A stretch of 38,291 bases of DNA from Alphaproteobacteria bacterium RIFCSPLOWO2_01_FULL_40_26 (GTDB lineage: Bacteria; Pseudomonadota; Alphaproteobacteria; Rickettsiales; UBA1997): assembly GCA_001767955.1 (NCBI GenBank), contig MEMO01000006.1, positions 1 through 38,291 on the forward strand, read 5' to 3'. Both the position numbers and the translations under genes were made by a program. This document shows, piece after piece, positions 5,132-30,023 of this stretch (position 1 is the stretch's first letter; each line of letters opens with the position of its first letter). The notes beneath the pieces were generated by a model. It was not told the origin of the DNA and made no database searches. It saw only the letters and a list, made by a program, of their open reading frames with translations.

Positions 5132-6897
5132 AATTTCATTGTAATAAAATATTTTTTAGCAACGAAGTAAGGATCGGAAATCACTTCTTTCCAGCAAATC
5201 ACTTCACCATTCCTTTCTTCACGCAAAGGGATTCTGATAATTTCTTCAAAACCCAAATTGCGATAAAGTTTCAGCGCCACCTCATTATCGGAAAAAACCC
5301 GCAAATAAATTTCAGAAACTCCAAGCTCTTTTTTGGCAAATTCAATTAAGGCTTTACATGCAGAAGTCATAATTCCCCTGGCAACCAAATGAACTCCACG
5401 CACAATATTATCAAGCTCGCAAGCTTTTTTATGATAATCAAAACGAAATAAACCAACATGACCAATGAGCTGTCCTTTTTCATCTGCCACAAAAAATAAA
5501 ATCCGGTCTTTTGCCGCAAGCAATTGTTTATCAAGCCAGGATTTTGTGCCAGCAAAAGTAACAGGAAATTGCGATGGAAAGGCATGCTGGTTTTCAGAAC
5601 GCCATTTTGCAAGCAACTCGATTTTATCTTCTTTTTCCAAATCCTGATAACCAATTGCGATCAGTTTTCCACCATTGAAAATTACAATTTCAGAATTTTT
5701 TTCACTCTTAAATTTCTGCAAAATTTTTTCGACATTCTCGCGATGTTCCAGCCAGCCGGAAATTTTGTTTCCGAGTAATTTTGCGCCTAAAACTTCCCTG
5801 ATGTGAAAACAGATATAATCGATTTCTTCTTCGGTTCTATTATGACCACTTGGAAGGTTGATTCCATTGAATCCAATATGATAGGCATTTTGATTGTTGG
5901 CTTTTTTAAACATTGGAAAACAGCTGAGTGGATAAAAAATCGGACGGGAATCAATCATTCTTTCTTTCAGTTTTTTCATGAATTCATCACGCGTAAATCC
6001 GCATTTTTCCTGCAGCACAATTGAGCTCATCCAGTAGATATTTTTTGCCCATGATTTTTGCGCGTTAAGAGCTATAAGATCAGATAAATCGCCAAGCCGT
6101 TTTTGATACCAGCCAAAAATTTCAATTTTACGCGCGACAATTTCCTCGACTCTTTCAATCTGCGCCAAACCAATTGCCGCCTGCAGATTTGACATTTTGT
6201 ATTTATAACCAATGTCAAGATTATAGAGCGCGCGATTTGGATCGCGCCCCTGATCCCAATAAAATTTAAATTTTTCAGTCAACTCATCATCATTGGAAAC
6301 ATACGCACCACCTTCACCAGTAACAATTGCCTTGGCGCCTTGAAAACTGAAAGCACCGGCATCGCCAAGATTGCCGGTTTTTCTACCTTTATATTCTGCA
6401 CCGATTGACTGCGCCGCATCTTCGATAATTTTCAAATTATGTTTGCGCGCCAGCTCCCACAGCGGCTCCATATCGCATGGATGGCCATAAATATGAACCG
6501 GCATTATCGCTTTTGTTTTTTTTGTAATCAGTTTTTCAACCGATTTTGGATCCATAGTCCACGAATCACGATCAACATCACAAAAAACCGGCGTGGCGCC
6601 AACATATCTAACTGCCGCTGCAGTAGCAATCCAGGTGATTTCCGGAACAATGATTTCATCTCCATGACCATAACCAAGAGCAATCATGATTAAATGCATA
6701 GCACCAGTACAGCTTGATGTTGCAACTGCATGTTTACACGCAACATATTCACCAAATTTTTTCTCAAATTTTTTGATATAATCGGAGTGATGCTCATTCC
6801 ATCCATTACGAATCGCATCAACACCATACTCAACTTCCTTTTCAGTAATTGATGGTCCGGCGGTCAAGATCAGCTTGTTGCAAATTGCCAATTTCAT
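5128..6897 (-). CDS. DegT/DnrJ sugar aminotransferase fused to GNAT acetyltransferase
   Basis: This 589-residue protein joins two enzymes. Residues 1 to about 370 form a PLP aminotransferase of the DegT/DnrJ/EryC1 (PerA-like) family, with the cofactor aspartate in IIEDAAQS (D160) and the Schiff-base lysine K189 in QGAKAIVTGEGG. Residues about 400-580 form a GNAT domain of RimJ/RimL type, with the acetyl-CoA region around GIMTSACKAL and the closing motif NEVALKLYRNLGF. The likely job is to aminate a nucleotide-linked 4-keto sugar and then N-acylate the amine on the same polypeptide; the exact sugar is unknown. The ATG at 6897 overlaps the upstream gene (ATGA), and the stop overlaps the rfbF start (ATGA). 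No frameshift or internal start suggests two separate genes. Confidence 0.88.
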   Translation of the reverse strand: MKLAICNKLILTAGPSITEKEVEYGVDAIRNGWNEHHSDYIKKFEKKFGEYVACKHAVATSSCTGAMHLIMIALGYGHGDEIIVPEITWIATAAAVRYVGATPVFCDVDRDSWTMDPKSVEKLITKKTKAIMPVHIYGHPCDMEPLWELARKHNLKIIEDAAQSIGAEYKGRKTGNLGDAGAFSFQGAKAIVTGEGGAYVSNDDELTEKFKFYWDQGRDPNRALYNLDIGYKYKMSNLQAAIGLAQIERVEEIVARKIEIFGWYQKRLGDLSDLIALNAQKSWAKNIYWMSSIVLQEKCGFTRDEFMKKLKERMIDSRPIFYPLSCFPMFKKANNQNAYHIGFNGINLPSGHNRTEEEIDYICFHIREVLGAKLLGNKISGWLEHRENVEKILQKFKSEKNSEIVIFNGGKLIAIGYQDLEKEDKIELLAKWRSENQHAFPSQFPVTFAGTKSWLDKQLLAAKDRILFFVADEKGQLIGHVGLFRFDYHKKACELDNIVRGVHLVARGIMTSACKALIEFAKKELGVSEIYLRVFSDNEVALKLYRNLGFEEIIRIPLREERNGEVICWKEVISDPYFVAKKYFITMKL

Positions 6898-10370: not shown

Positions 10371-11419
10371 TTTTTCACAAAATTTTTGATCTGATCCGCG
10401 GTGAATTTTTTCATATCTGATTTTTGCTCGAAGTAATTTTTATACCATTCCGCTGTCCAGGAAATTGCTTCATCAAAGGATAATTTTGGTTGCCAGAACA
10501 GATCTTTTTTGGCGCGCGAATTGTTGAGTTTCAGGATTTCTGCTTCATGGAAATCAAGGTCTTCTTTGATTTTATAAACGCCAATGCCGATTTTTGTGAT
10601 GAAATTTTGTGTCAGAATTTCAACATTTTTTTCCGCATCAAAATCAGGTCCGAAATTATATGGCCTGGCAAAATCATTGCCGTTTTCATAAAGATTTTTT
10701 GCCAATGCCAAATATCCAGAAAGTGGTTCAAGCACGTGCTGCCATGGTCTGATAGATTTTGGACAGCGCAATATCACCTCTTCATTTTTACGAATTGCAC
10801 GAAAAATATCTGGGATCAGCCGATCATGCGAAAAATCACCGCCACCAATCACATTGCCGGCACGCGCCGAAGCCAAATGAATCCCTTCCTTTTGCGTGAA
10901 AGAGCGACGATAGGATGAAGTTAAAATTTCAGCACAGGCTTTGCTTGATGAATAAGGATCATAGCCGCCGAGCATATCATCTTCCTTGTAGGCATAGTTT
11001 ATTTCTTTGTTTTCATAACATTTATCGGTGGTGACATTGACGATGGCCCTGACACTACCTGCTTTGCGTGCCGCTTCAAAAACATTCAATGTGCCAATCA
11101 CGTTGGTTTCATAGGTTTCGCGCGGATTGAAATAAGACTGACGTACCAAAGGTTGCGCCGCCATGTGGATAATTATTTCCGGCCGGAAATTTTTTATCTC
11201 ATTTTCTAAAACTGAAAAATTGCGAATATCGTCAAAACATGATCTATCCAGCTCCACGTTCAGATTCAGGATATTAAACAGACTTTCTTTTTCTGGGGAT
11301 AAGGCAAAACCACAAACTTCAGCTTCCATTTTTTTCAACCACAGAACAAGCCATGAGCCTTTGAAGCCGGTATGTCCGGTAAGGAAAATTTTTTTGCCGG
11401 AAAAAAATTTAAAATCCAT
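10367..11419 (-). CDS. rfbG: CDP-glucose 4,6-dehydratase
   Basis: The 350-residue protein is an extended SDR. The Rossmann glycine motif is TGHTGFKGSW at the N-terminus. The active-site threonine and flanks lie in NVTTDKCYEN, and the catalytic tyrosine and lysine in YDPYSSSKACAE. The blocks MAAQPLVRQSY, RAGNVIGGGDF and RPWQHVLEPLSGYL are characteristic of RfbG/AscB rather than dTDP- or GDP-sugar dehydratases. It converts CDP-glucose, made by the RfbF homologue in this operon, into CDP-4-keto-6-deoxyglucose. The start overlaps the end of the upstream membrane-protein gene by 11 bp, and its stop overlaps the GT2 start by 4 bp. Confidence 0.95.
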   Translation of the reverse strand: MDFKFFSGKKIFLTGHTGFKGSWLVLWLKKMEAEVCGFALSPEKESLFNILNLNVELDRSCFDDIRNFSVLENEIKNFRPEIIIHMAAQPLVRQSYFNPRETYETNVIGTLNVFEAARKAGSVRAIVNVTTDKCYENKEINYAYKEDDMLGGYDPYSSSKACAEILTSSYRRSFTQKEGIHLASARAGNVIGGGDFSHDRLIPDIFRAIRKNEEVILRCPKSIRPWQHVLEPLSGYLALAKNLYENGNDFARPYNFGPDFDAEKNVEILTQNFITKIGIGVYKIKEDLDFHEAEILKLNNSRAKKDLFWQPKLSFDEAISWTAEWYKNYFEQKSDMKKFTADQIKNFVKK

Positions 11420-13223
11420 AAAAAACCAGATTGGAATTTTTTGAAATTATTGGTGGAAGTTTGGCAATCTTTTGCAGTTGTTTTTCAAATTGTTCTGCGA
11501 CTTGCTGCCCTTGAATTTGCGACATGTAATTACGGTCGATATAAATGCCGGAAAAATTTACCTTCTTCAGCTCGGAAATAAATTTATCAAATTTCATTTT
11601 TGAAACTTTCCGCTGCCACAAATGAGATGGACGCCCTATAATTGCTGGTTGCGACCATTTCAGATTTTTTGAGTGAAGGTATGGAATCAGCATATCATAA
11701 CTTTGCCCTTCCGGAAAACGTATATATGGCATCATAAAAACCGCTGCGTTTTTTGGCAGTTTCTGTTCGATTTCCGCAACAAAATCACGATCGGCAGAAA
11801 ACTTTTCCTTCATCGTTTCGCTTTGAATCGTCTCGGCAGAATAATACCCTCTTTGATCAAAAAAAGCGGCGATGGCAATAAATAAAATAACAATTTGCGC
11901 CAAAGTTTTTCCCAAAGTTTTTCCCAAAGTTTTTTTTCGGGAAGACGCAATTATTTTATCAAAAACAATGGCGATTAAGAAAAACGAAAAGAAGGCAATA
12001 AAAACCACAAAACGCGCATGGCTTCTGAAAGTTGGAAAAAATATCGCAACAAACATTACCAAACCGCCAGCCGTAGCAAACAAAACCGATAACAAATTCA
12101 GACTGGCAAGATTGGAAATGAGATTTTTTCTATCATGCGGCAATGAGGTTTGTCGCACAGTTTTTTGCCATAACATGCTTTCACCATCATGATTTTTGGC
12201 AATCAGCCAGAACAACAAAAACACAAAACCGCTGGCGGCTAATATTCCGAGACTCTCCATCTGTCTTTCACCTCCACTGACAACATTGTAAAAAAACTTA
12301 TTAAGATCTCTGAAATAACTCACATAATGATTGCCAATTGGCAAAAACAGATCGGTTATTCTCAAGGCATAAAATTCACTTTCTGCCGTAGCACGACCAG
12401 CAACAACGCGATTGAAACCATTTTCAAACCAATAGAGAAACGATGGGATATTAAGCAAAATAACGGTTAAGCCTGTTAACAGACAAAGAGCAAATGGAGA
12501 GAAAAAATCACAATCAAAAAATTTATCATTCCTCAAACCATGCAAGAACCAGGCAAAAACAAAAATGACACAGGAATAAAAGGCGTAATAAACACCGTTA
12601 GTAGCAACGAAAATGCTTATGAGTGAAGCTAGTATGAAATAACGGTTGGGAGTGATGGCATATTGCCGGATTTTACTAATTGTGATCAACCTGATTTTGT
12701 TTTCAGCAATCCATAACGCCACCATCACCGCCAAAGGAACTGACATGTAATTCGACAGAAAAATATGACCAACATTGCGCAACAGGTGATATGGTAAAAA
12801 ACTATACAGAATGCTGATGATAATTGCGGTGTAAGCGCTGATTTTAAAACTGCGTAAAACCAGAAAAGAACTAAAAGCAATCATGGGAAATGAGAGCAGA
12901 AAAAATAAATTCATAACCAGAAAATGGTCGGAAGAAAAGTAAGATAAAATTTTGATCAGCAAAAAGTGGAATGAATCTGCATTCAATGGAAAATCATGTA
13001 GATAAAATTTTTCAACAAGATGTGGTAAACCCACGAAATCATTGGAGAAAAACCATCCGCAATCAATAACACTTTTAACCACAAATGTCGCACTAAGAGT
13101 ATCACCACCATCACTAAAAATCGGCAAATGAAGATCGATATTCCACAGCTCAAATGATAAAAAAACCAGAATCAGAGCTATTGCCGGAGCAATTAGGTAA
13201 GAAATAAAATTACTTTTTGTCAT
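11409..13223 (-). CDS. Polytopic membrane protein, possible GT-C glycosyltransferase
   Basis: The predicted protein has 604 residues from ATG 13223 (an in-frame TTG lies one codon upstream). The first two thirds contain about ten or more hydrophobic helices. An acidic, exposed segment follows the first helix ([14 protein letters not shown]), as in GT-C enzymes that use lipid-linked sugars. The last 150 residues are a soluble, probably periplasmic domain. I do not recognise a specific family with confidence; flippase-independent glycan transfer or another envelope role would fit the operon. The start lies inside the end of thrS (14-bp overlap), so the sugar operon may be transcribed from the thrS promoter. 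Confidence 0.65.
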
Positions 13224-15141
13224 CAAGCCGCTTCCTCACTAATAAAATAAACTCTTCCAAACTCATACTATACTGATTTTCCTCACCAAATTTTCTTACC
13301 GAAATGCTTCCGCTTTCCGACTCTTTTTTTCCAACTGCCAAAATGTATGGAATTTTTTTCAGAGAATGTTCACGAATTTTGTAGGAAATTTTTTGCGAGT
13401 CCAAATCCGCTTCAGCTCTGAAACCGTGCGATTTTAATTTTTCCAGAACTTGCCTGGCATATTGATCAGAATCATTGGTGATTGTTGCAACAACCATTTG
13501 CACTGGCGCTAACCAAAGCGGAAATTTTCCGGCGCAATTTTCGATTAAAATTCCGATGAATCTCTCGAAAGTTCCGATGATGGCGCGATGCAACATAACC
13601 GGACGCTTCCTGGAGCCATCTTGCGCTACATAGCTTGCATCAAGCCGTTCCGGCAAAATAAAATCAACTTGCAAAGTGCCGCATTGCCAGGTTCTGCCGA
13701 TGGCATCGGTTAAATGAAATTCAAGTTTTGGTCCGTAAAATGCACCTTCGCCGGGATTTATTTCGTAAGTTAATCCAGCCTTTTTTACCGCTTCAGCAAG
13801 AGCCGCTTCAGCCTTATCCCACGTGTCGTCAGAACCAGCGCGCTTTTCCGGACGCGTTGAAAATTTTACATCAATTTTTTCAAATCCGAAATCACGATAA
13901 ACTTCTTTGAGCAACTCACAAAAAGAAATCGTTTCGGAATTAATCTGATGCTCTTCACAAAAAATATGAGCATCATCCTGCGTGAAAGCACGCACGCGCA
14001 TGATTCCATGCAACGAGCCGGAAGATTCATTGCGATGACATGAACCAAATTCCGCCATGCGCAACGGCAATTGGCGATATGATTTCAGATCCTGATTAAA
14101 AATCTGCACATGGCACGGACAGTTCATCGGCTTGATTGCAAGAAGACGTTCTTCACTTTCAGCAACAAACATATTCTCGCGAAATTTTTCCCAATGACCG
14201 GATTTTTCCCATAAAATGCGATCAACCAATTGCGGCGTTTTCACTTCGACATAGCCATTTTTTTCGAGCTTTTGGCGAAGATATTTTTCGATTTCGCGAT
14301 AGATGATCCAGCCTTTCGGATGCCAAAACACTGATCCCGTAGCCTCTTCCTGAATGTGGAATAAATCAAGCGCGCGGCCGATTTTGCGATGATCTCTTTT
14401 TTCTGCCTCCACTAAAACATGCAGATAATTTTTTAGCGATTCTTCACTTTCCCAGGCAGTACCGTAGATGCGTTGCAACATTTCATTTTTTGAATCACCG
14501 CGCCAATAAGCGCCGGCTAATTTCATCAATTTGAAATGTTTAACGTGAGAAGTTGAAGGGGCGTGCGGACCGCGACAAAGATCGATAAATTGCCCCTGAC
14601 GATAAAGTGAAATATCTTCATTTGCCGGAATTGAAGCGATGATTTCGGCTTTGTATTTTTCACCAATTGAGTTGAAAAATTTCACTGCTTCATCACGTTT
14701 CCAAACCTCACGAACCAGCTTCTCATCTCGCTTCGTGATCTCGCGCATTTTGTTTTCAATCTTCTCCAAATCTTCCAAAACAAATGGTTCTTTACGCGCA
14801 AAATCGTAATAAAATCCATTTTCAATCGCCGGACCAATTGTCACCTGTGTTTCAGGAAAAAGCTCTTTCACCGCTTCCGCCATGATATGCGCCGCATCAT
14901 GACGAATAATTTCCAAAGCATCTTTTAAAGTATGGACGCCGGATTTTGGCGTGATAATTTCAATTTTTGCATCTGCTTCAAACAGGTATGAAAGATCGTG
15001 CAACTCGCCATTTACACGAATTGCCAACGCTGATTTAGCCAAAGAAATCGCGATTGACTTGGCAATTTCAAAACCGGAAACACCGCGCAAAAACTCACGC
15101 GAAGCGCCATCGGGAAAAGTGATTTTGATTTGATCTGACAT
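13210..15141 (-). CDS. thrS: Threonyl-tRNA synthetase
   Basis: The protein (643 residues from ATG 15141) shows the full ThrRS order. A TGS domain lies at about 1-65, and the editing domain carries the zinc histidines in [11 protein letters not shown]. The class II catalytic core has [10 protein letters not shown] and [12 protein letters not shown], and the anticodon-binding domain closes the protein. It charges tRNA-Thr. I set the start at [12 protein letters not shown] because the TGS domain begins there; the reading frame stays open 20 codons further to a TTG. Divergent from the GT2 gene at 15196, it heads the long minus-strand operon. No T-box or other leader fits in the 54 bp between the two start codons. 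Confidence 0.95.
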
Positions 15142-16275: not shown

Positions 16276-16419
16276 GGTTGTTATCAAAAATGTTGTGTCT
16301 CTGAAATCAGATCCTGAAACAAGTTCAGGATGACATGTTTTGAAACCATCCTCCCCGGATTGTCATCCTGAACTTGTTTCAGGATCTGATTTTTTGGACA
16401 CAAAATTTTAAGAACAATC
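16276..16419. repeat. Family B REPIN-like repeat, copy B2
   Basis: This 144-bp element has outer inverted ends (GGTTGTTATC and AAGAACAATC). Inside are two REP-like hairpins in opposite orientation, each with ATCCTGAA/TTCAGGAT arms. It lies in the gap between the convergent GT2 (ends 16185) and GNAT (ends 16438) genes. No clear target duplication is visible. It is more diverged from copies B1, B3 and B4 than they are from each other. Confidence 0.85.
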
Positions 16420-16437: not shown

Positions 16438-17022
16438 TCATAACAAAGGAGCTAATTTGGCATAGCCCATTTTTAAAAATTTGTTAATATTGTTTTGGTA
16501 ATCAGATCTCTTTATTACGAACAAAAAATACTTTCCGTGCTCACCAACAATTTTTGCCATTTTGATAAAATCGTGAATCCTGATCATTCTGACAAAATCC
16601 CTGTCAACATTCCACGGACCACAAATTTCGCGTTCAAGAAATTCAAAACCTATTCGATAAACCATCAACATGGCATCAAGTGGCACATTGGGTGAACTAT
16701 TTTCTGCAACCACAAAACTTTGCCAGTTGAAAACTCTGTTATCCAGGATTTCCGTAAAGCGCAAAACTCCAGAAAATTTCCCGGTTTGGCGATCAAGAAT
16801 TTTATAATAAATTTCTTCCCTTTTGGCAAAGCGCTCGAAATAGCCATGTAGATATTTGCGCTGATCATCAATCGTTCCAGGGGTTGCGCGCAAAAAATTG
16901 TCCTTTTTTCTGTTGCGCAAATCATAAATCAATCCTGCGTCATCAAGATCAATATGATGCAATTCGCAAAATTTTCCTTTAATGGAATTGGTAGAAAAAA
17001 GCTGTTCGATTTTTTTATGCAA
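16438..17022 (-). CDS. GNAT-family N-acyltransferase, probably sugar-modifying
   Basis: The 194-residue protein resembles RimJ/RimL-type GNAT enzymes. An N-terminal strand-helix unit (HHIDLDDAGLIYDLRN) is followed by the segment KILDRQTGKFSGVLRF and an acyl-CoA or acyl-ACP binding half around residues 85-150. The start is TTG at 17022. It is chosen because GGAGG lies eight bases upstream, inside the end of the SDR gene, and no ATG is available. It is last in the ACP - KAS III - SDR - GNAT cassette, so I infer that it transfers the acyl group built by those proteins to an amino sugar. The family assignment is by pattern and moderately sure; the acceptor is unknown. Confidence 0.7.
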   Translation of the reverse strand: MHKKIEQLFSTNSIKGKFCELHHIDLDDAGLIYDLRNRKKDNFLRATPGTIDDQRKYLHGYFERFAKREEIYYKILDRQTGKFSGVLRFTEILDNRVFNWQSFVVAENSSPNVPLDAMLMVYRIGFEFLEREICGPWNVDRDFVRMIRIHDFIKMAKIVGEHGKYFLFVIKRSDYQNNINKFLKMGYAKLAPLL

Positions 17023-17698
17023 AACTGATTCCTCCAGTTAGATCAATAACACCGCCATTGGTGTAATTATTGGCCAGAATGAATTTGATTGCGCCGATTA
17101 AATCGGCTTTGCAGCCAAATTTGCGATTGCCGATCGATAAGGTGAATTTTTTGATTTTTTCCGGTTCCATAAGATTGGTCATTCGTCCATCAAAATAACC
17201 CATACGGATTGAAGTGGAATAAATGCCAAAAATGGCATTTTCTTTGCCAATTACTTCAAAAAATTTTTCACCAAAAGCTTTGGATGCAGAATAAAGACTA
17301 ACACCGCGGGATGTAGTTTGAGCACGAAATGAGCTCAAATAAATGAAATTTCCGGCTTTGATTTTTACCATGTAAGGCAAAATAAAATGGCAAAATTGCA
17401 CATATTGCAGCACGTTAACTTTTAGCGAATCGTCGATGTTTTCTCTGGTTTCCTGCAGAAATAAATTTTTCTGCGTCAGAAAAGCGGCGCCGATAAAAAT
17501 TATACGTTTTGGTTTCAGTTCTTTAAATTTTTCATCAAAAACTTTTTTGAATTGCTCGAAGTTATTGACATCGGAAGAGTTGACCAATTCTTTTGGCACG
17601 CGTTTGTTGTAAATTCGGATGAAATAAGAATTTTCGAAAGAAAAAATATCCTCAAGCAACTCGCTTTCTGATCCATAAATTACGTATAAATTAACCAT
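17015..17698 (-). CDS. Short-chain dehydrogenase, FabG-like ketoacyl reductase
   Basis: The 227-residue protein has the SDR core: N95 in KVNVLQ, a serine pair in YLSSFRA, and the catalytic Y136 and K140 in YSASKAFGE. The C-terminus reads GGVIDLTGG, as in FabG. The usual N-terminal glycine motif is degenerate (YGSESELL), and the protein is slightly shorter than FabG, so cofactor binding may be altered. It probably reduces a 3-oxoacyl-ACP made by the adjacent KAS III to the 3-hydroxyacyl form. The ATG at 17698 overlaps the KAS III stop by 8 bp. The 3' end supplies the ribosome binding site of the GNAT gene. Confidence 0.78.
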   Translation of the reverse strand: MVNLYVIYGSESELLEDIFSFENSYFIRIYNKRVPKELVNSSDVNNFEQFKKVFDEKFKELKPKRIIFIGAAFLTQKNLFLQETRENIDDSLKVNVLQYVQFCHFILPYMVKIKAGNFIYLSSFRAQTTSRGVSLYSASKAFGEKFFEVIGKENAIFGIYSTSIRMGYFDGRMTNLMEPEKIKKFTLSIGNRKFGCKADLIGAIKFILANNYTNGGVIDLTGGISFA

Positions 17699-18605
17699 TT
17701 TTTTTGCCGTAAATTATTACTGAAGAAGTTAGGCCAACACCAAATCCGGCGAAAATATTTACCGAATTTTTGTTGGAAAAATTCAGGGGAAAATCTTTGA
17801 GTAAAAATGGAATCGAAGAAGAAACGGTGTTGCCGTAAGCAGAATAATTTTCAAAAACTTTTTCTTTTTCGAAAGACAATAAAGACTTTATACCATCAAC
17901 AACCACGCGGCTGGCTTGATGAATGTAAATACCATTAATTTTGAGATTATTGTTTTTGCAAAAATTTATCGCTTCAACAATTTGTGGCACAACTTTAATG
18001 CGGGTAAACATCCATATTTCTGCACCAGACATATGCAAAAAACCGTTATTTTCTTTTTTGCCAGCTGATTGAAATAAAAGATTGCGCTTGCTGCCATCGG
18101 TGAAATGGCTTTCGTAAATAATTCCAAATTGTGGATCATATTGACAGATGGTGGCGCTGGCGCCATCGCTAAAAACAGCGTTAGTTGAGCGATCAGCATC
18201 ATGCAATTTGCTGCGATAACGATCGGCGGTAACCAAAAGAATGTTGTTATAAAATGAATTGAGCTTGTCGATTAGGCACAAAGCTTGCACGAAACCCGAA
18301 CAGCCTTGGCTGATATCAATGGCAAGACAGTCTGATGGCAGTCCAAGTCGGTTGGAAAGTGTAATGGAATTGGCAGGAAGATAATCGTCGGGAGTTTGGG
18401 TTACCATCATGCAAAGCTTGATAGAATTTTTATCGATGTATTTTTCAATATTGGTGCAGGCCGTTAGAGCCAAAGAAACCGTACTATCATCAGACTGATA
18501 AACATATTCGATGCCGGTTTTTTGGATTAAATCATCATTATCAAACAAAGAGTTGACCGCGATTTTTTTAGCGCCAAGCGCAGTTTCAGTTTTTAACAAA
18601 CGCAT
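17691..18605 (-). CDS. 3-oxoacyl-ACP synthase III (KAS III/FabH-like)
   Basis: The 304-residue protein carries a complete KAS III triad: C102 in DISQGCSGF, H229 in IYIHQAS and N259 in YSAYGNTVSSS. The C-terminal loop reads IFAGFGVGLTSSV. It should condense an acyl-CoA starter with malonyl-ACP. I set the start at ATG 18605, 20 bp inside the acp gene, since the frame upstream (open to 18674) lies wholly within acp and has no KAS III features. It is probably not the housekeeping FabH, because it sits with its own ACP, reductase and GNAT rather than with plsX or fabD. It may thus form a specific short 3-oxoacyl chain for sugar decoration. Confidence 0.87.
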   Translation of the reverse strand: MRLLKTETALGAKKIAVNSLFDNDDLIQKTGIEYVYQSDDSTVSLALTACTNIEKYIDKNSIKLCMMVTQTPDDYLPANSITLSNRLGLPSDCLAIDISQGCSGFVQALCLIDKLNSFYNNILLVTADRYRSKLHDADRSTNAVFSDGASATICQYDPQFGIIYESHFTDGSKRNLLFQSAGKKENNGFLHMSGAEIWMFTRIKVVPQIVEAINFCKNNNLKINGIYIHQASRVVVDGIKSLLSFEKEKVFENYSAYGNTVSSSIPFLLKDFPLNFSNKNSVNIFAGFGVGLTSSVIIYGKKNG

Positions 18606-18837
18606 TACTGCAACGATTGAGACAATCGAGAATTTCCTTGATAGAAGTTGAGGCGGCAAGCTCTTGGCTTTCATTATATTGATCGCCGATTTCTTCAGAG
18701 ATTTTGCTTAAAATTGCCAAATGACCCAAACTATCCCATTCAAGAATATCGCTGGATTTGGTGTTGATGTTGATGGAATTTTTGTCCACCTCCAAAGCTG
18801 CAGAAACAATAGAAATCACTTTGTCTTCAGTAATCAT
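18586..18837 (-). CDS. Acyl carrier protein
   Basis: The 83-residue acidic protein has the phosphopantetheine site as D-S-L with S36 (ILEWDSLGHLAIL). It is flanked by an N-terminal helix and a C-terminal helix (STSIKEILDCL), the four-helix ACP pattern. The start is ATG 18837, one codon inside a possible TTG. It lacks the usual FabD/FabF neighbours and is not the typical housekeeping ACP sequence. It most likely tethers the acyl chain made by the next genes (KAS III and SDR). It is the first gene of its operon; a weak promoter can be read upstream. Confidence 0.87.
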   Translation of the reverse strand: MITEDKVISIVSAALEVDKNSININTKSSDILEWDSLGHLAILSKISEEIGDQYNESQELAASTSIKEILDCLNRCSNAFVKN

Positions 18838-18884
18838 CAAAAGAACGGAAATTGGTTTTTAAAAATAAGTAGCAAAGGCGGTAA

Positions 18885-19188: not shown

Positions 19189-19264
19189 GGGGCTATAGCG
19201 CAGCTGGTAGCGCGCTTGCATGGCATGCAAGAGGTCACGAGTTCGACTCTCGTTAGCTCCACCA
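19189..19264 (+). tRNA. tRNA-Ala (anticodon GGC)
   Basis: The 76-nt sequence folds as a standard cloverleaf. The acceptor GGGGCTA pairs with TAGCTCC (one G-T). The anticodon arm CTTGC-ATGGCAT-GCAAG gives anticodon GGC (alanine codon GCC), and the T arm contains GTTCGACTC. The discriminator A and CCA (19262-19264) are encoded. It stands between the 179-bp palindrome and the transposase remnant, a common kind of integration site. No second copy of its 3' end is visible in the window, so an attachment-site role is not demonstrated. Confidence 0.95.
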
Positions 19265-19422: not shown

Positions 19423-19567
19423 GGTTGTTATCAAAAATATTGTGTCTCTAAAAACAGATCCTGAAGCAAGTTCAGGATGACATGTTTTGGAACCATCTTT
19501 CCCTAATTGTCATCCTGAACTTGTTTCAGGATCTGTTTTTTCTGGACACAAAATTTTAAGAACAATC
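19423..19567. repeat. Family B REPIN-like repeat, copy B3
   Basis: This 145-bp copy has ends GGTTGTTATC and AAGAACAATC and two opposed REP-like hairpins. It is almost identical to B1 and B4 in its right half. It abuts the truncated family A end on the left and the transposase codons for YDGHTL on the right, so it lies within the dead IS. Confidence 0.88.
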
Positions 19568-20212: not shown

Positions 20213-23200
20213 TTACCCATAAATGCTGACAAACTTTTCGTCTAGTTTGTTTCTACGACAAAACTCATCTTTAACTTCACTGGCTTCTTTTTTAATTTCG
20301 CTCCAATCACTTTCTTCAATTAATCCGAATACTTGTTTTACAAAATCAATATCAACACCCATAAAATAGCCCTTAACTTTAAGCATCAGTTTAATCACTT
20401 CCCAAGCTGTTTTGTGACAATTTTGTAAATCTTCGAACAATTTTTCACCAATAATAAAAATTTCTGGTCTTCTTTCTTCTCCAGATTCTTTTGCAGATTC
20501 CAATAATTGCTCAAGTGCCCATTTACGATCAAATAAGCCAGATTTATACCACCATTTAAACGACTGATATTCTTCAACAGAGATTGGCAATTCGGCAGAA
20601 TTTTTTATTCTCCAATCCCATAAATTTTTGAACCTACCCAAAAACTCTTTTGGCACAGGATTATTTTCATTACAGCACCATCTTCCAATCAAAGAAATCA
20701 TTGCCGATCCATCTTTTGGACGCTTCTTGAAAAGTTTTTTTAATAGATCATCTTCAAGTTTTATCTTACCTCTGGAATAAAATACTGCGATACTTTCGCC
20801 AAGCTTGAAATTGCTGCGCTTGCTGTCTTTTTCCTCATCAGTAGGATTCTCAAGGGCTAAAAGATATTTATCTTTAAGCAAATCAAACATGTCATCGAAT
20901 GATGGAACAAAGTTTATGTAAGTCAGCCAAACTGCATTGAATCTTGCCTTGTTCTTCTTTGGGAGAATCGCTTCTAGATTATCCTTAACCCATTTTTGAT
21001 TAATCAAATTAATCCAAGGCAAATAACGCCCTAAAACAGCAAAACCTTCAAGATAAGAATCTTTAGAAATTAGGTTATCTAAAACTGAAGTAAGAATTTC
21101 AGAGGCGTATTTCTTGTTGTTTTTTCTAAACTCTAACAAGGCTAACTCAATTAAAGCAGCTAAAGCTTCGCCGTGACAGCTATTGATTGCTCGGCTATAA
21201 TATCGGTCATCATCATTATCATTAATTTCCCACTTTTCTAGAATTGCATCTTTATCAAGAATCATTTTCTTCAAAACCAAAACCACATTTTTTGAAAGAT
21301 TTTCAGGAATTTGATTTTGCTCTTTAGATTTGCAGCTTTCAGAAATTAGCTTTGCGAATTCTTGTTTGCACCAGCCCCAGTGACTGTCTCCATCAAAGCT
21401 ATAGCTGTCAAAATTACTAAATTCCTCATTTTTAAAGTCAGTAGACTGATCAGCAATCCATTTTCCTAACTCAATAATCTTTATCCAATCCTCTTCTGTT
21501 TTATTTGGATATTTTGTTAAGGCTCTAAGTAGGCGTTTTGGATAAGTTGGATTAGAAAGTTGGTTAAATAGTGCCAAGCCATCCAGATATTTTTTTGGAC
21601 TCTTTTCAAAATCTTTTTCCAATGCATTACCTAGTCCTCTGGGATTTGGTGCGTTAAATCCCTCTCCTTTCTTTGGTTGCCACGAGGTTATGAATTTTAT
21701 TATTTTTTTAATTTGCATCTTCGCCAACTCTTCTTCGGCAATTGGAGAATGATCTGTAATAAATTCAGCTTCTTTAACATGGTGTGGTAAATCTGGCCGC
21801 TCTTCCTTCTGAAATTCTTTGCTTAGCTCTTGATATTTCTTTTTCCACTCGCCACTTAATCCATCATTGATGCAATCCAATTTATTGAACAGCCACCTGT
21901 TGGCGCATAGATCTCTTTCTTTTTTTGCATTATCGTTATCTGAAGCTTTAGTATTTTTTCTTTCTTCAAAGCCATCATTTATAAAACCTAGAATTTTCTT
22001 CTTATTTGCAGCAGAAAGATTTTTAAATTCTTGTTTAAGCAAAAGATAATATTCGTGGTGAATATGGTAGTTATCAAACCTCTCTTTAACAACCAAGTGC
22101 TTCGCTACAGCTTTATTTTGCTTTTCTGGATACTTACGCAGCAGATGAAGAATAATTCTGGTAAATATCAAAAAATCCGAACCATCACTTAGTTTTTCTT
22201 CCAAAACTCCAATTACTTTTGTTTTGTTTTTTGAGTCATTTTCAAAGATGTATTCAGCCACATCACGAATTGCTGTAATTAACTTAAATTCAGCAGCATT
22301 TCTGTATTGATCCTGTTCATGATCTTCAATTGCAGAACGATTAAAACATAAACGCTGATTACTTTCTTTCGCAAATTTTCCATCAACTGCATTCTTCAAA
22401 ATTTTGCACAAAGTTTCAAACAGCTTGAGGGAGCTTTTTACTAAAACAGAATTTTTAATAACCTTCAAAACCTCTTCGTAATCATAATCCTCCATGTTGG
22501 CAGAATCATTAAATCTTGTCTTAAAATCGTTGAACTTAGCTTTCTGATCATCTGGTTTTATCAACAATAATTCTTCAGCAATTTCTAAAACTAATTTTTC
22601 ATAACCCTTTCTAACCAAATCATTTAAAAAATCTTTCACATAATGGCTGTTGGTGGTGGCATTCAAATTTTGACTATTCTTTAGATAATCACGATAAGCA
22701 TTTCCAACTTTTAGACTATAGTTTTTTTCATCAGGAAAATTTTCACTAATCTTAAAAATTCTCATCAAAACAAAATGACCAACATCAATATTTTTGCTTA
22801 AGCGTTTTTCTAGATAAGGTTTGATTATTTCAAAAACTTCAGATGGTTCCTCTTTTGCAACCTTTGATAAGTAAATACCTTGAGGCCAACTTTCTAATTC
22901 TGATTTTTCTGGTGGAAGATGTTCTTTAAAACGTTGAAGCCATTTAGGATTTCTTAAATTTTGAAAAAAATATTCTTCAGTTTCTTTTGTTATATTAATA
23001 CGAACATGATTTGTTATGCGGTCATCATCTATAAATGGCTCTGTATTAATTTTTTTTAAAATCTTCTTTATATTCTCGATCCTATCTAAATAGCTGGATG
23101 CTAAAATCAAAAACGCATCTTCAACATCAGATATCATTGACCCAACTTCTGTTAGACCATGTTTTAATTCTTGATCAAAATGACGGAAACGATGAGTGCC

Positions 23201-23707
23201 TTCTTTTTTTGAGTACAAATTTTTTACAAAATCATCGACAACTTTATCACCACCGTACTTGACGCTTAACTTGTCTTCAACAAATTTTCTAATTCTCTTT
23301 TTATCGTAATTTTCTTCTTCTTTTTGGCTTAGCCTTTTTGTAATTATTTTTAAAATGTCAGAAATGTCATCTCCACTACTTGCAAGACCCATCTCTTTAG
23401 TTGCATTTAAAAGTATTTTTTTGTTAAGAGATTCTTCTCTTCTAAGCATTGAATTTAACATCTCATTCAAACAATGAGTTAAAACTAGCTCTATTGCAGG
23501 CATATCCGGATACGCTTGGCAGAATAACATTGTTTTATATATCTTCTTTGCATCGCCAGCCTCTATCTTATCCAAGAAATCAATCACTTTCTTCTGTCTT
23601 TCAGACAAATTTTTTTCCAGATATTCTCCAACAGAATTTAATGTTTCTGTGGGAACGGAATTTGATGTTTTTGTAGGAAAGGGAGGCGAGTTAATCATAT
23701 TGATCAC
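20213..23707 (-). CDS. Large helical protein of unknown function in AbiE-linked operon
   Basis: I do not recognise this 1164-residue protein. It is almost wholly alpha-helical by composition, soluble, rich in lysine, glutamate and leucine, with many 35-45-residue helix pairs that look like HEAT- or TPR-type repeats. No Walker A, nuclease, protease or membrane motif is seen. A conserved-looking block W-P-x-x-x-Y-L-x-x-V-A lies near residue 280 (ESWPQGIYLSKVA), and a tryptophan-rich segment (SFKWWYKSGLF) near residue 1065. GTG 23707 overlaps the MNT-HEPN stop (GTGA); ATG 23698 is an alternative start. It is the last and largest gene of an operon with AbiEi, AbiEii and MNT-HEPN. It could be a scaffold, sensor or target-binding partner; this is inference. 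Its stop codon abuts a family A element. Confidence 0.8.
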   Translation of the reverse strand: MINMINSPPFPTKTSNSVPTETLNSVGEYLEKNLSERQKKVIDFLDKIEAGDAKKIYKTMLFCQAYPDMPAIELVLTHCLNEMLNSMLRREESLNKKILLNATKEMGLASSGDDISDILKIITKRLSQKEEENYDKKRIRKFVEDKLSVKYGGDKVVDDFVKNLYSKKEGTHRFRHFDQELKHGLTEVGSMISDVEDAFLILASSYLDRIENIKKILKKINTEPFIDDDRITNHVRINITKETEEYFFQNLRNPKWLQRFKEHLPPEKSELESWPQGIYLSKVAKEEPSEVFEIIKPYLEKRLSKNIDVGHFVLMRIFKISENFPDEKNYSLKVGNAYRDYLKNSQNLNATTNSHYVKDFLNDLVRKGYEKLVLEIAEELLLIKPDDQKAKFNDFKTRFNDSANMEDYDYEEVLKVIKNSVLVKSSLKLFETLCKILKNAVDGKFAKESNQRLCFNRSAIEDHEQDQYRNAAEFKLITAIRDVAEYIFENDSKNKTKVIGVLEEKLSDGSDFLIFTRIILHLLRKYPEKQNKAVAKHLVVKERFDNYHIHHEYYLLLKQEFKNLSAANKKKILGFINDGFEERKNTKASDNDNAKKERDLCANRWLFNKLDCINDGLSGEWKKKYQELSKEFQKEERPDLPHHVKEAEFITDHSPIAEEELAKMQIKKIIKFITSWQPKKGEGFNAPNPRGLGNALEKDFEKSPKKYLDGLALFNQLSNPTYPKRLLRALTKYPNKTEEDWIKIIELGKWIADQSTDFKNEEFSNFDSYSFDGDSHWGWCKQEFAKLISESCKSKEQNQIPENLSKNVVLVLKKMILDKDAILEKWEINDNDDDRYYSRAINSCHGEALAALIELALLEFRKNNKKYASEILTSVLDNLISKDSYLEGFAVLGRYLPWINLINQKWVKDNLEAILPKKNKARFNAVWLTYINFVPSFDDMFDLLKDKYLLALENPTDEEKDSKRSNFKLGESIAVFYSRGKIKLEDDLLKKLFKKRPKDGSAMISLIGRWCCNENNPVPKEFLGRFKNLWDWRIKNSAELPISVEEYQSFKWWYKSGLFDRKWALEQLLESAKESGEERRPEIFIIGEKLFEDLQNCHKTAWEVIKLMLKVKGYFMGVDIDFVKQVFGLIEESDWSEIKKEASEVKDEFCRRNKLDEKFVSIYG

Positions 23708-24576
23708 AGACTAATCTTCCTTGAGCACACATCTTCAGTAATCTTTAAGAGATTCTTTACATCTTCTGCCAAGACTTCCAAATCCTCTTTTGAAATCTTA
23801 TATTTTGGATCATATCTACCACCGATGTAAGCATATTCTAAAAGTTTGAAACGTTCTTTTTGTTCTTCGGTTTCTCTGATAAATAAGCTGCGTAATTTAG
23901 GGAAATATTCTTCACATTCTTTGCCAAGGATTGCCAAGAAATGTTCGTTTGGATTGTAAAGTGTAAAAACAAGTAGAATGGTTTTGTAAGCGTGTTCAGC
24001 AGATTGATGAAGATCAAAAGCAGCTTTGCCAAAATAAGATGAATCGTTTTCTGATTTTTTAAAATCGGATCCAAAGTCATCAAAGAACATTTCGGCTCTT
24101 TTAAACCAATGCTCAAAATATTCCGTTCTGAATTTTTGAATCTCATCATCACTTAAATTTCTGCGATCAGCAAAATCAAAATTGCCAGCGTCAAAAATCA
24201 CGATTCCTTCTTCTTTAATGTCAGAATAGAAATACTGCCCAACGGAGAGCTTGTTGTTTAGCTCTTCAATGTCGTGGGTTAAAATTCTTGGATCGGCGCT
24301 TAGTTTTAAGTTGCGGCATTTTTCGCCGATTTCGTGCCAGAGGTTTGTATCAAGAGCGGTTATGGCATCTTTTGTTACAACCAAAATATCATAATCAGAA
24401 ACATGTCCAGATTTGCGGTTTTCAGCTAAGTCTTTCTTTTCTTTGTAATCGCCGCGGGCGTAAGAACCGAAAAGGATAATTTTTTCAACATCTTTGCAGT
24501 TATCGCGGATTGTAGAAATGATTTTTGCCAACTCGTCGTGCTTACGTTGCGGTAAGTGTTTAAGAGAATTGTTCAT
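23704..24576 (-). CDS. MNT nucleotidyltransferase - HEPN fusion protein
   Basis: This 290-residue protein has two domains. Residues about 15-125 form a minimal nucleotidyltransferase with ILFGSYARGD and, after a lysine-rich insert, the acidic pair SDYDILVV. Residues about 150-285 form a HEPN-type helical bundle (EHWFKRAEMFF, AAFDLHQSAEHAYK, GGRYDPKYKISKEDLEVL). MNT and HEPN proteins usually act as antitoxin and RNase toxin, or are joined as here. A catalytic RX4-6H motif is not clear; R-T-E-Y-F-E-H near 150 fits the spacing but lies in the first helix. I chose ATG 24576 because AGGAG, overlapping the AbiEii stop, stands seven bases upstream. An ATG at 24582 is too close to that site. Confidence 0.83.
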   Translation of the reverse strand: MNNSLKHLPQRKHDELAKIISTIRDNCKDVEKIILFGSYARGDYKEKKDLAENRKSGHVSDYDILVVTKDAITALDTNLWHEIGEKCRNLKLSADPRILTHDIEELNNKLSVGQYFYSDIKEEGIVIFDAGNFDFADRRNLSDDEIQKFRTEYFEHWFKRAEMFFDDFGSDFKKSENDSSYFGKAAFDLHQSAEHAYKTILLVFTLYNPNEHFLAILGKECEEYFPKLRSLFIRETEEQKERFKLLEYAYIGGRYDPKYKISKEDLEVLAEDVKNLLKITEDVCSRKISL

Positions 24577-24586
24577 AAGCATACTC

Positions 24587-25402
24587 CTAAATTCGGTTAA
24601 TAATTTCACTTTTTACATACTCAAAAGCTTCGTCAAAATTCCAGTTGGTCTGGCCAGGAATAAATGGAGTATTGTAAGGCGAGAATTGATGAGGCAGTAA
24701 AATATTCATATCGAGCTGAAAGTCTTTGTTTAAGCGCTTCAATTCGAGATTCTTTAAAAACAAATCTTTGGAAATTTTTAGTTTGCCGTGATCGCAATAT
24801 TTTTTGAAAATTTTTAAACACTCATCGATGTTTGCTAAATTTTTGCTGAAGACCATCCACAGATCGAATAAATCCCTACCTTTGCGCCTTTGATATAAAG
24901 CTCTTATCTTGGTTGCCATCAACTCTTCTAACTGATTAACCGCAACTATACTTTCGCCGCTAAACCATTCTGACTCAAAGCCGAAAGCTGCGTTATTGAT
25001 ATCCATTACTTGAAAATGCTCGGTGGTATTAATCTCAATTTTAAGCTTCATTGGCAGGCCGTTAACTGAAGTATATTTGTAAACCAATTTTGCTGATCGT
25101 TCAGTCAAAAGGCGGTTTGGCTCACCAAGCCAATTCAGTGCAATTCTAACGGCATCTATTGTTTCGCCAATTGGCTCAGCTCTCGTTTGTACAAAATCTA
25201 AATCTTCACTGTAACGCACTGATGGTTTGAGATAAATTTTATTGAGTGCAGTTCCGCCACGAAAAATCAGGCTATCTCTAACTTTTTGATTGCCGTAAAG
25301 ACAAACCAAAGCCCTGTTGATGATTAAATCCTGCTCAACCATATCAAGGGTTTGCCAAGGAGCATTTTGTTGCCATTTTTCTATGAAAAGTTTTGGGATC
25401 AT
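24587..25402 (-). CDS. AbiEii-type nucleotidyltransferase toxin
   Basis: The 271-residue protein has the motifs of the AbiEii/DUF1814 family. G-G-T-A-L lies in LIFRGGTALNKIY, then R-Y-S-E-D-L-D-F in the next strand, a lysine-containing motif at LKIEINTTEHF, and a downstream K-x-R-A-L-x-x-R-x-x-x-R-D-L-F-D block. AbiEii toxins are NTP-dependent nucleotidyltransferases; some modify tRNA acceptor ends and stop growth, in phage abortive infection or as type IV toxin-antitoxins. The ATG at 25402 overlaps the AbiEi stop (ATGA), as expected of such a pair. All key residues appear intact. Confidence 0.92.
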   Translation of the reverse strand: MIPKLFIEKWQQNAPWQTLDMVEQDLIINRALVCLYGNQKVRDSLIFRGGTALNKIYLKPSVRYSEDLDFVQTRAEPIGETIDAVRIALNWLGEPNRLLTERSAKLVYKYTSVNGLPMKLKIEINTTEHFQVMDINNAAFGFESEWFSGESIVAVNQLEELMATKIRALYQRRKGRDLFDLWMVFSKNLANIDECLKIFKKYCDHGKLKISKDLFLKNLELKRLNKDFQLDMNILLPHQFSPYNTPFIPGQTNWNFDEAFEYVKSEIINRI

Positions 25403-26205
25403 AAGTCGCTTTCAATAGTTGTGTTTTCAATGATCATCCATTTCTTGCATCTTGGATAGCCTTTAACGGGAATTTCAGGCGCTAGGGCAACGAGTTTTTT
25501 TTCAGAGGATAAATATTCTTGTAAGCCGTTAATAATTTCTTGTTTGTGCTCAGGATTTTCGGAATCAATTTTTTCCAAGATATATCCTAATTTTTGCAGC
25601 CAGAATTTTTGATTAGAAATATTCGCCAACTCGATCAATTTTTTAAGATCAATTGATTGTGCCAATTCTGATAGAACAGTTGCGATATGATTTAGTCCGC
25701 CACTTCTGCCAGAATAAAGCAGTAAATCCATAGCGGTTAATTCCGGCGAGGAAATTTTCAAATAGCCGCTATCAACGGTGATTTCTTTTAGAGGAAGGTT
25801 GGCTAGAGATTTTTTGTAGATTGCATCAATGCTAATCTGACCAAATTTTAAATTTTTGCGGATTTGCTTATCGGAAATTATCTGGAATGAATTTGGTTTT
25901 TGATGAGTTGCGCCGTGATACATTGCTGCGCTAAGTAAGCCCACATAATAGCTTACTCCTAAATGCTTCATTAAAATTGGAACTAACTCTTCAGCTGGTA
26001 AGCAACCTTGCAATTGATGTTCAGGTGGAATGATAACATAAAACCCTCTTGCGGGATTAATGATCTCACCATGTTTTTTTACGCGACGTATAGAAACCAA
26101 AACATTGTGTTTTGAAGTTTGTAAATCGCTTACAGCTTGGTCTATTGTAAAGGAAATCTGCCCTGATTTTCTTAAATCTTTTAAATATTCTGGAAACTTT
26201 GCCAT
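25399..26205 (-). CDS. AbiEi-type antitoxin and transcriptional repressor
   Basis: The 268-residue protein resembles AbiEi antitoxins. An N-terminal winged helix-turn-helix (about 1-60, FTIDQAVSDLQTSKHNVLVS) is followed by the antitoxin domain, with YYVGLLSAAMYHGATHQKP and LTAMDLLLYSGRSGG. In studied systems AbiEi counters the AbiEii toxin and represses its own operon by binding inverted repeats through the winged helix. Inverted repeats flanking a promoter are present upstream at 26232-26290. The ATG at 26205 has no strong ribosome binding site. It is the first of four genes reading to 20213. Confidence 0.9.
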   Translation of the reverse strand: MAKFPEYLKDLRKSGQISFTIDQAVSDLQTSKHNVLVSIRRVKKHGEIINPARGFYVIIPPEHQLQGCLPAEELVPILMKHLGVSYYVGLLSAAMYHGATHQKPNSFQIISDKQIRKNLKFGQISIDAIYKKSLANLPLKEITVDSGYLKISSPELTAMDLLLYSGRSGGLNHIATVLSELAQSIDLKKLIELANISNQKFWLQKLGYILEKIDSENPEHKQEIINGLQEYLSSEKKLVALAPEIPVKGYPRCKKWMIIENTTIESDL

Positions 26206-26449: not shown

Positions 26450-26594
26450 GGTTGTTCTTGAAATTTTGTGTCCAAGAAAATTAGATCCTGAAACAAGTTC
26501 AGGATGACATGTTTTGGAACCATCTTTCCCTAATTGTCATCCTGAACTTGTTTCAGGATCTGTTTTTTCTGGACACAAAATTTTAAGAACAATC
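26450..26594. repeat. Family B REPIN-like repeat, copy B4
   Basis: This 145-bp copy is the best preserved. The outer ends GGTTGTTCTTGAAATTTTG and CAAAATTTTAAGAACAATC are inverted repeats. REP-like units at 26483-26508 and 26536-26561 face each other. It truncates the helicase stub on one side and ends 4 bp before the ATG of the MFS gene on the other. That gene's 5' leader, and perhaps its promoter, is therefore made of repeat sequence. Confidence 0.88.
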
Positions 26595-29958: not shown

Positions 29959-30023
29959 AGATCCTGAAACAAGTTCAGGATGACGAGTATAAAAACTGTC
30001 ATCCTGAATTTGTTTCAGGATCT
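29959..30023. repeat. REPIN-like core (two opposed REP hairpins, 65 bp)
   Basis: AGATCCTGAAAC...GGATGAC at 29959-29984 is repeated in inverted orientation at 29998-30023 with 13 bp between. It matches the core of the family B repeats but lacks the outer arms. It occupies nearly the whole gap between the divergent hemW and FTR1 genes, so both promoters must overlap it. Confidence 0.85.

Follow-up and report, generated by a model that had tools for sequence, protein, structure and literature searches.

The 38,291-nucleotide (nt) contig MEMO01000006.1 of Alphaproteobacteria bacterium RIFCSPLOWO2_01_FULL_40_26 (Rickettsiales; UBA1997) carries a four-gene cassette encoding an acyl carrier protein (ACP), a 3-ketoacyl-ACP synthase III (KAS III), a short-chain dehydrogenase/reductase (SDR) and a protein of the GNAT family. 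We consider it probable that the cassette is a dedicated line for the synthesis of a short acyl group, coupled to a sugar N-acyltransferase, with a dTDP-3-amino-3,6-dideoxyhexose as the candidate acceptor and a surface glycan as the destination. The analysed window is this entire contig (C6), one of 38 in an assembly of 1.44 Mb.

The minus strand encodes all four genes, beginning with the ACP and continuing with KAS III, SDR and GNAT, over positions 16438–18840. The original prediction described them as overlapping or abutting, and the open reading frames (ORFs) bear this out, each overlapping the next by 20 nt (ACP/KAS III), 8 nt (KAS III/SDR) or 8 nt (SDR/GNAT). The ACP gene (18586–18840) encodes 84 amino acids (aa) from a TTG start, or 83 aa from an ATG at 18837, and places the phosphopantetheine serine in the motif EWDSLGHL. 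For the KAS III gene (17691–18605, 304 aa) we adopted the ATG at 18605; an alternative ATG at 18674 adds 23 residues, all of them within the ACP gene. The FabG-like SDR (17015–17698, 227 aa) keeps N95, S123, Y136 and K140 and is missing the glycine-rich cofactor loop, and the FdhC-like GNAT (16438–17022, 194 aa, TTG start) is the putative sugar N-acyltransferase. The key residues named in the prediction were all located: the ACP serine (S36 in ATG numbering, S37 in TTG numbering), C102/H229/N259 of the KAS III and Y136/K140 of the SDR.

Comparison with homologs supports the view that the ACP and the KAS III form a dedicated pair outside housekeeping metabolism. The ACP falls under the Pfam cut-off (PF00550, E = 0.019) and matches weakly in NCBIfam (TIGR00517, 2.6e-4), and phmmer ties it to the ACPs of similar cassettes in an Omnitrophota genome (L126, 5.7e-14) and in SAR11 (L122, 4.6e-11). 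It is 40% identical to the Omnitrophota protein, 35% to the SAR11 protein and 19% to its own genome's housekeeping ACP; D36 and S37 (numbered from the TTG) are invariant across seven aligned ACPs. The KAS III has both expected domains (PF08545, 1.5e-11; PF08541, 1e-10), and its C102, H229 and N259 are invariant in an alignment of 11 proteins, within the motifs QGCSGF, HQASR and GNTVSSSIP. Unlike this last motif, seven FabH-like proteins carry ANTS(A/S)A(S/T)IP, and the genome's own FabH, the other KAS III, which lies outside the cassette and is 27.7% identical to the window protein, has ANTSAASIP together with AVCSGF. The window KAS III forms an isolated branch in a phylogenetic tree with support of only 0.59–0.73 along its path, so the motifs and the context, and not the tree, separate it from FabH. 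A housekeeping role in fatty acid synthesis was considered for the cassette and ruled out, as a separate housekeeping ACP and FabH are encoded elsewhere in the genome and the KAS III motifs are not those of FabH.

Sequence comparison likewise supports the assignment of the GNAT as an FdhC-type, putative sugar N-acyltransferase. The crystallized FdhC (5kta) is its sole sequence match in the PDB up to an E value of 10, at 8.9e-9, with residues 14–182 aligned to residues 6–174. The title of a second entry, 5ktc, describes FdhC with the products Coenzyme A and 3-[(R)-3-hydroxybutanoylamino]-3,6-dideoxy-d-galactose. An AlphaFold2 model of the GNAT (pLDDT 62.7), built from a three-sequence alignment in which two sequences are FdhC-like relatives, retrieves FdhC first in both Foldseek and VIA-align. 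The Z scores against FdhC are 18.2 and 16.7 and the best entry other than FdhC reaches 15.5, values that are to be read in the light of a modest model and of the FdhC relatives in its alignment. The possibility of a plain acetyltransferase is disfavoured, since the match to PF13302 is under the Pfam cut-off (E = 0.069), whereas FdhC is the only PDB match.

Relatives of the GNAT track with FdtA. Among the 174 genomes of the order, which we treat as the same set for both counts, 8 have a GNAT match and 22 have FdtA, this genome being included each time. In six of the seven other GNAT-bearing genomes, the contig with the GNAT also encodes FdtA, no more than about 4 kb away, while FdtA occurs anywhere in only 15 of the 166 genomes that have no GNAT match (Fisher p = 1e-5 versus the GNAT-bearing genomes). 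Ten plasmid records also matched the GNAT, and FdtA was found within 4 kb in six of the eight that were opened (H35 and H36 were left out), one record being cut at its end. At the level of the family, a GNAT match is present in 6 of 61 genomes, again including this one, and four of the five others were opened, the weak match G556 being left out. FdtA adjoins the GNAT in two of them (G127 and G595), and in a congener (G602, locus L222) GNAT, FdtB, FdtA and RmlA all lie within 6.4 kb.

The genome itself contains, by homology, an FdtA/FdtB-type pathway to such an acceptor sugar. Contig C11 encodes FdtA (PF05523, 8.6e-36), RmlA (TIGR01207, above the cut-off) and a DegT aminotransferase that is 45–53% identical to four FdtB-type proteins from FdtA loci; DegT matches occur at nine places in the genome, of which three are strong, and two of those three are within the window. 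The RmlB step also belongs to the dTDP-Fuc3N and dTDP-Qui3N routes, and RmlB is encoded on contig C34, above the curated cut-off. According to PMC4869667, RmlA leads to dTDP-Fuc3N when combined with FdtAB and to dTDP-Qui3N when combined with QdtAB.

The gene set, the catalytic residues, the relation to FdhC, the sugar pathway in the genome and the repeated occurrence of similar combinations in sugar clusters are observed; from them we infer which substrates are used, how long the acyl chain is, how it is reduced and in which glycan it ends, as follows. Housekeeping enzymes would supply phosphopantetheine and malonyl groups to the dedicated ACP, and the KAS III would condense a short acyl starter, most likely acetyl-CoA (the coenzyme A thioester), with malonyl-ACP to give acetoacetyl-ACP. 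The SDR, or failing that the housekeeping FabG, would reduce this to 3-hydroxybutanoyl-ACP, and the FdhC-like GNAT would use the acyl group to acylate a nucleotide-activated amino sugar at its amine. The strongest candidate acceptor is a dTDP-3-amino-3,6-dideoxyhexose (Fuc3N or Qui3N), which the RmlA-, FdtA- and FdtB-type products of contig C11 would make together with RmlB from contig C34, and the acylated sugar would then enter a surface glycan.

To place the cassette among related loci, we scanned a KAS III alignment over the genomes of 84,980 species and confirmed 276 places, of which the best 80 were kept; all locus counts refer to these. The loci were classed by whether the KAS III has an ACP or an SDR gene on its own strand at a distance of up to 2.2 kb, and sugar families were recognised by small custom hidden Markov models (HMMs) up to 8 kb to each side, a range often cut short by contig ends. 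The original prediction had suggested looking for the same set of genes in glycan clusters with known 3-hydroxyacyl sugars; in our sample, sugar genes were found at 14 of the 16 loci with ACP, KAS III and SDR. They were also found at 24 of the 31 loci with an ACP only and at all four with an SDR only. When the three classes are pooled, sugar genes accompany 42 of 51 loci, versus 7 of the 29 with neither ACP nor SDR (p = 3.5e-7, a value that overstates the evidence because the 80 loci contain sets of closely related members and are not independent), and two or more sugar families are present at 31 of 51 versus 5 of 29. Confinement mainly to lipid or polyketide clusters devoid of sugar genes, which the prediction had named as the contrary outcome, is not what this sample shows. 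Around the 16 ACP–KAS III–SDR loci we collected 87 neighbours, at most six ORFs of at least 140 aa nearest the KAS III per locus and excluding the cassette genes, and the commonest Pfam families were glycosyltransferase 2 (9), DegT (8) and GNAT (7). Polyketide synthase and peptide synthetase families are absent from the 25 of 91 Pfam families listed for these neighbours. Together with the FdhC-like GNAT, this association of such cassettes with sugar genes upholds the earlier proposal that the acyl group is made for a sugar.

Other searches were less telling. Within the class, the KAS III had matches in 333 of 385 genomes at E = 1e-15, most of which their scores mark as housekeeping FabH, and the 20 best-scoring places outside this genome were opened. 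A search of the KAS III against phages gave 16 records, all below 60% identity, and one of the SDR against plasmids gave 15, many annotated as FabG; both are uninformative.

Two further features recur among related loci. Eleven loci (L124, L137, L146, L161, L176, L178, L182, L183, L185, L188 and L194) pair two KAS III genes with one nearby ACP and SDR, and these resemble the gene content given for wfpC–F of Flavobacterium psychrophilum in PMC6519341. A small-domain methyltransferase recurs beside ACP, KAS III and SDR (L122:9604–10368, L126:5385–6113, L116:9584–10309, L123:6955–7668 and L218:7061–7777); it belongs to PF05175 in the first four loci and is homologous in L218, and its substrate may be the acyl group or the sugar.

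Two loci, L122 and L125, are the closest parallels. L122, from an uncultured member of the Pelagibacteraceae (SAR11), has relatives of all four window proteins and an FdtB-like DegT. Its KAS III and SDR score 3.1e-43 and 2.6e-22 against those of the window, each the best in the set searched, its ACP scores as given above and its GNAT 7.9e-10; the latter matches FdhC at 2.2e-23. In L125 (Flavobacterium sp. 245), a single cluster holds RmlA (a nucleoside triphosphate transferase), RmlB (a dehydratase), two copies of FdtA, a GNAT that matches FdhC at 4.5e-27, an ACP, a KAS III, an FdtB-like DegT and export genes. The aminotransferase for the candidate acceptor sugar adjoins the cassette genes in both loci, unlike in this genome. 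A third locus, L221, on a 4.7-kb contig from another genus of the family (G588), has an uninterrupted series of genes for a KAS III cut by the contig end, an ACP, an SDR, an additional protein and an FdhC-type GNAT, and its ACP and SDR are only distantly related to those of the window (2.6e-4 and 5.8e-4). Loci L020 and L074 have an ACP and a KAS III beside FdtA/FdtB and so follow the same logic of making an acyl group next to sugar genes, but they carry a hexapeptide transferase and not an FdhC-type GNAT; L074 also has a GNAT of another Pfam family, PF13480.

The idea of an acyl line reserved for a sugar is already in print for Pseudomonas syringae (PMC3927599) and F. psychrophilum (PMC6519341), and the present cassette is a variant of it. 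In P. syringae pv. tabaci the viosamine island consists of acp, vioS, vioR, vioB, vioA, vioM and vioT, as described in PMC3927599. It shares with the window a dedicated ACP, a KAS III, a gene of the 3-oxoacyl-ACP reductase type and a sugar N-acyltransferase, and its product is a dideoxy amino sugar with a 3-hydroxybutanoyl group in amide linkage. That sugar is the 4-amino sugar viosamine, with the genes beside its aminotransferase, whereas the acceptor proposed for the window is likely a 3-amino sugar whose genes lie elsewhere in the genome; the island as described also differs in that the window cassette contains no methyltransferase and has an SDR without the cofactor motif. The FdhC-like nature of the window transferase may be a further difference, from VioB. 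For the O-polysaccharide of F. psychrophilum, the R1 genes wfpC–wfpG have a proposed role in both the synthesis and the transfer of the acyl group (PMC6519341). The set resembles that of the window in combining a dedicated, in that case O-antigen-specific, ACP with 3-ketoacyl synthases, a reductase and an N-acyltransferase, and in a proposed acyl group destined for a dideoxy amino sugar, but it has two ketosynthases and a transferase homologous to PglD, the acyl group is 3,5-dihydroxyhexanoyl, with six carbons, and the sugar is a UDP-4-amino sugar. Finally, FdhC itself (5kta/5ktc; fdhC of E. coli O103 and Hafnia, PMC4869667) shares the GNAT relationship, and its partner genes FdtA/FdtB are in the window's genome; it differs in that its structure contains CoA, and the main text of PMC4869667, in which the words 'acyl carrier' do not occur, mentions no dedicated ACP with fdhC. 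Our literature search, whose coverage excluded most subscription journals, found no FdhC-type GNAT accompanied by an ACP of its own. The window differs from the two published acyl lines in its FdhC-type transferase, in the 3-amino sugar that is its likely acceptor, in the separate placing of the cassette and the sugar genes, and in its altered SDR.

The cassette lies near a CDP-sugar-type operon comprising PanB (1746–2600), an overlapping acetolactate-synthase-like thiamine pyrophosphate (TPP) enzyme (2582–4333), a nucleotidyltransferase, CDP-glucose 4,6-dehydratase and two DegT proteins. One of the latter is a fusion of a DegT aminotransferase and a GNAT domain (5128–6897), on the same strand as the cassette and about 10 kb away, for which amination and N-acylation in one protein are predicted. 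The original prediction linked the neighbouring PanB to phosphopantetheine supply. We do not retain this link: the window PanB (PF02548, 2.9e-99) is one of two in the genome, the other being on contig C16 (a single PanC is on contig C23), and because of this second copy and the operon setting it is uninformative on phosphopantetheine supply. The PanB/TPP pair possibly serves a branched sugar or an acyl side chain.

The surroundings of the cassette bear on its origin. Two copies of a dispersed repeat of about 144 nt (16276–16419 and 19423–19567), in direct orientation and belonging to families D1 and D3 (92% and 97%), bracket the cassette together with a tRNA-Ala gene (19189–19264). The repeat is palindromic, and its 25-base core, GTCATCCTGAACTTGTTTCAGGATC, has nine matches in the window with at most three mismatches, where none is expected; further sites are at 22–46, 26484–26560 and 29960–30022. 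No close orthologue of the cassette was found among 60 other genomes of the family, in which the best KAS III is 35% identical and comes from a congener with a different arrangement, KAS III–SDR–methyltransferase–ACP (L218, G560); of the 15 family matches outside this genome three were opened (L218, L219 and L223), and L219 and L223 are FabH-like. A search of the genus for an empty site with the neighbouring glycosyltransferase gave, outside this genome, only relatives of at most 35% identity, so that no congener offers comparable flanks. Acquisition of the cassette by horizontal transfer is plausible.

A number of observations weigh against the interpretation given at the outset, and we set them out together. 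The window GNAT is divergent, with 18–27% identity to eleven relatives, and the near-invariant motif F-x-W-G-S reads FNWQS, with F98, W100 and S102 kept and G101 replaced by Q. The crystal complex of FdhC contains CoA, not ACP. In this genome the cassette is not adjacent to FdtA/FdtB, and the candidate aminotransferase is on another contig; FdtA was likewise not found near the GNAT of one genome of the order (G049) or of one plasmid locus (L079). At L122, the custom HMM scan of the locus did not detect FdtA, and the GNAT is not encoded on the strand shared by ACP, KAS III and SDR but on the other; the same scan at L125 detected no SDR near the KAS III. Sugar genes, moreover, still occur at the 7 of 29 loci that have neither ACP nor SDR. 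Lastly, the SDR has no N-terminal TGxxxGxG loop but YGSES in its place, four columns shorter than in five comparators.

This last point makes reduction the weakest link of the scheme: with the cofactor loop missing, the product may be 3-hydroxybutanoyl, through the window SDR or a housekeeping FabG, or acetoacetyl, and the likeness to the viosamine-type cassette, though not the gene set itself, becomes less certain at this step. The claim that the cassette builds a 3-hydroxyacyl-ACP and moves it to an amine independently of the main ACP accordingly stands for the dedicated ACP/KAS III pair and the FdhC-type transferase, while its '3-hydroxy' part has become uncertain. It is conceivable, if unlikely, that the SDR no longer reduces, and that acetoacetyl (3-oxobutanoyl) is delivered or the SDR is a mere scaffold or coupling factor. 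The GxxxGxG motif is present in 22 of 23 other aligned SDRs, the single exception (L068) looking FabI-like, and also in L218 (the congener) and L221. The reading frame nevertheless runs unbroken across the change, the domain match is clear (PF00106, 4.3e-17), and N95, S123, Y136 and K140, the entire catalytic N-S-Y-K set, are kept and invariant in an alignment of six proteins. A modest predicted model (pLDDT 67.9), which does not settle cofactor binding, still has FabG-type reductases as its best structural matches, and FabI-type SDRs function without the classical dinucleotide-binding motif. When the reductase gene of P. syringae was deleted, the glycans lacked the 3-hydroxybutanoyl-modified sugar, as described in PMC3927599.

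An acceptor other than the dTDP sugar, such as the product of the DegT–GNAT fusion, strikes us as quite unlikely. The fusion is encoded close by on the cassette strand, in the CDP-sugar-type operon with its nucleotidyltransferase, its CDP-glucose 4,6-dehydratase and its pair of DegT proteins, but this DegT already has a GNAT domain of its own, FdhC-type GNATs track with FdtA, and the aminotransferase of L122 is nearer to FdtB of contig C11 (41% identity) than to the fusion (25%). As the likely acceptor genes rmlA, fdtA and fdtB are on another contig, the adjacent CDP-sugar-type operon is probably not the acceptor pathway. We think it highly unlikely that the cassette is a decaying, horizontally acquired and non-working remnant: the bracketing repeats, the lack of a close orthologue in the family and the divergence of GNAT and SDR could be read in that way, yet all four frames are open and overlapping and the catalytic residues of KAS III, ACP and SDR are intact. 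That it serves lipid or polyketide synthesis and has no connection with sugars is hardly credible; its enzymes are of the fatty-acid type and 9 of the 51 loci with ACP and/or SDR showed no sugar gene, a count that also tells against our interpretation, but the neighbours of such loci are chiefly glycosyltransferases, DegT and GNAT, with no polyketide or peptide synthetase among the families listed, and the transferase is FdhC-like. A dedicated acyl line feeding a sugar N-acyltransferase therefore remains the interpretation that we favour.

Elsewhere in the window, an AbiEi/AbiEii-type pair has as its neighbour a protein that combines HEPN and nucleotidyltransferase domains (23704–26205), and an adjacent ORF of 1164 aa (20213–23707) showed no convincing family in a domain search. 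A protein of 605 aa (11409–13226) with no Pfam or NCBIfam match is encoded between threonyl-tRNA synthetase and CDP-glucose 4,6-dehydratase.

The cassette joins two literatures, that of the FdhC-type 3-hydroxybutanoyl-Fuc3N transferases, with CoA in the crystal, and that of sugar-dedicated sets of ACP, ketosynthase and reductase; the gene content of loci such as L122 and L125 suggests that FdhC-type enzymes can be fed by an ACP of their own. In practice, an ACP and/or an SDR next to such a KAS III suggests a sugar cluster, a working rule that held at 42 of 51 loci among the best 80 of the 276 confirmed places. More speculatively, and in our opinion improbably, the FdhC-type GNAT may be charged directly from the dedicated ACP and be paired with a loop-less reductase, so that the organism would either reduce through an unusual cofactor pocket or place an acetoacetyl (keto) group on the 3-amino-3,6-dideoxyhexose; if true, the latter decoration would give a surface glycan bearing a reactive ketone. 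For the organism, we propose a likely acyl-sugar on the surface of a poorly known, small-genome lineage of alphaproteobacteria.

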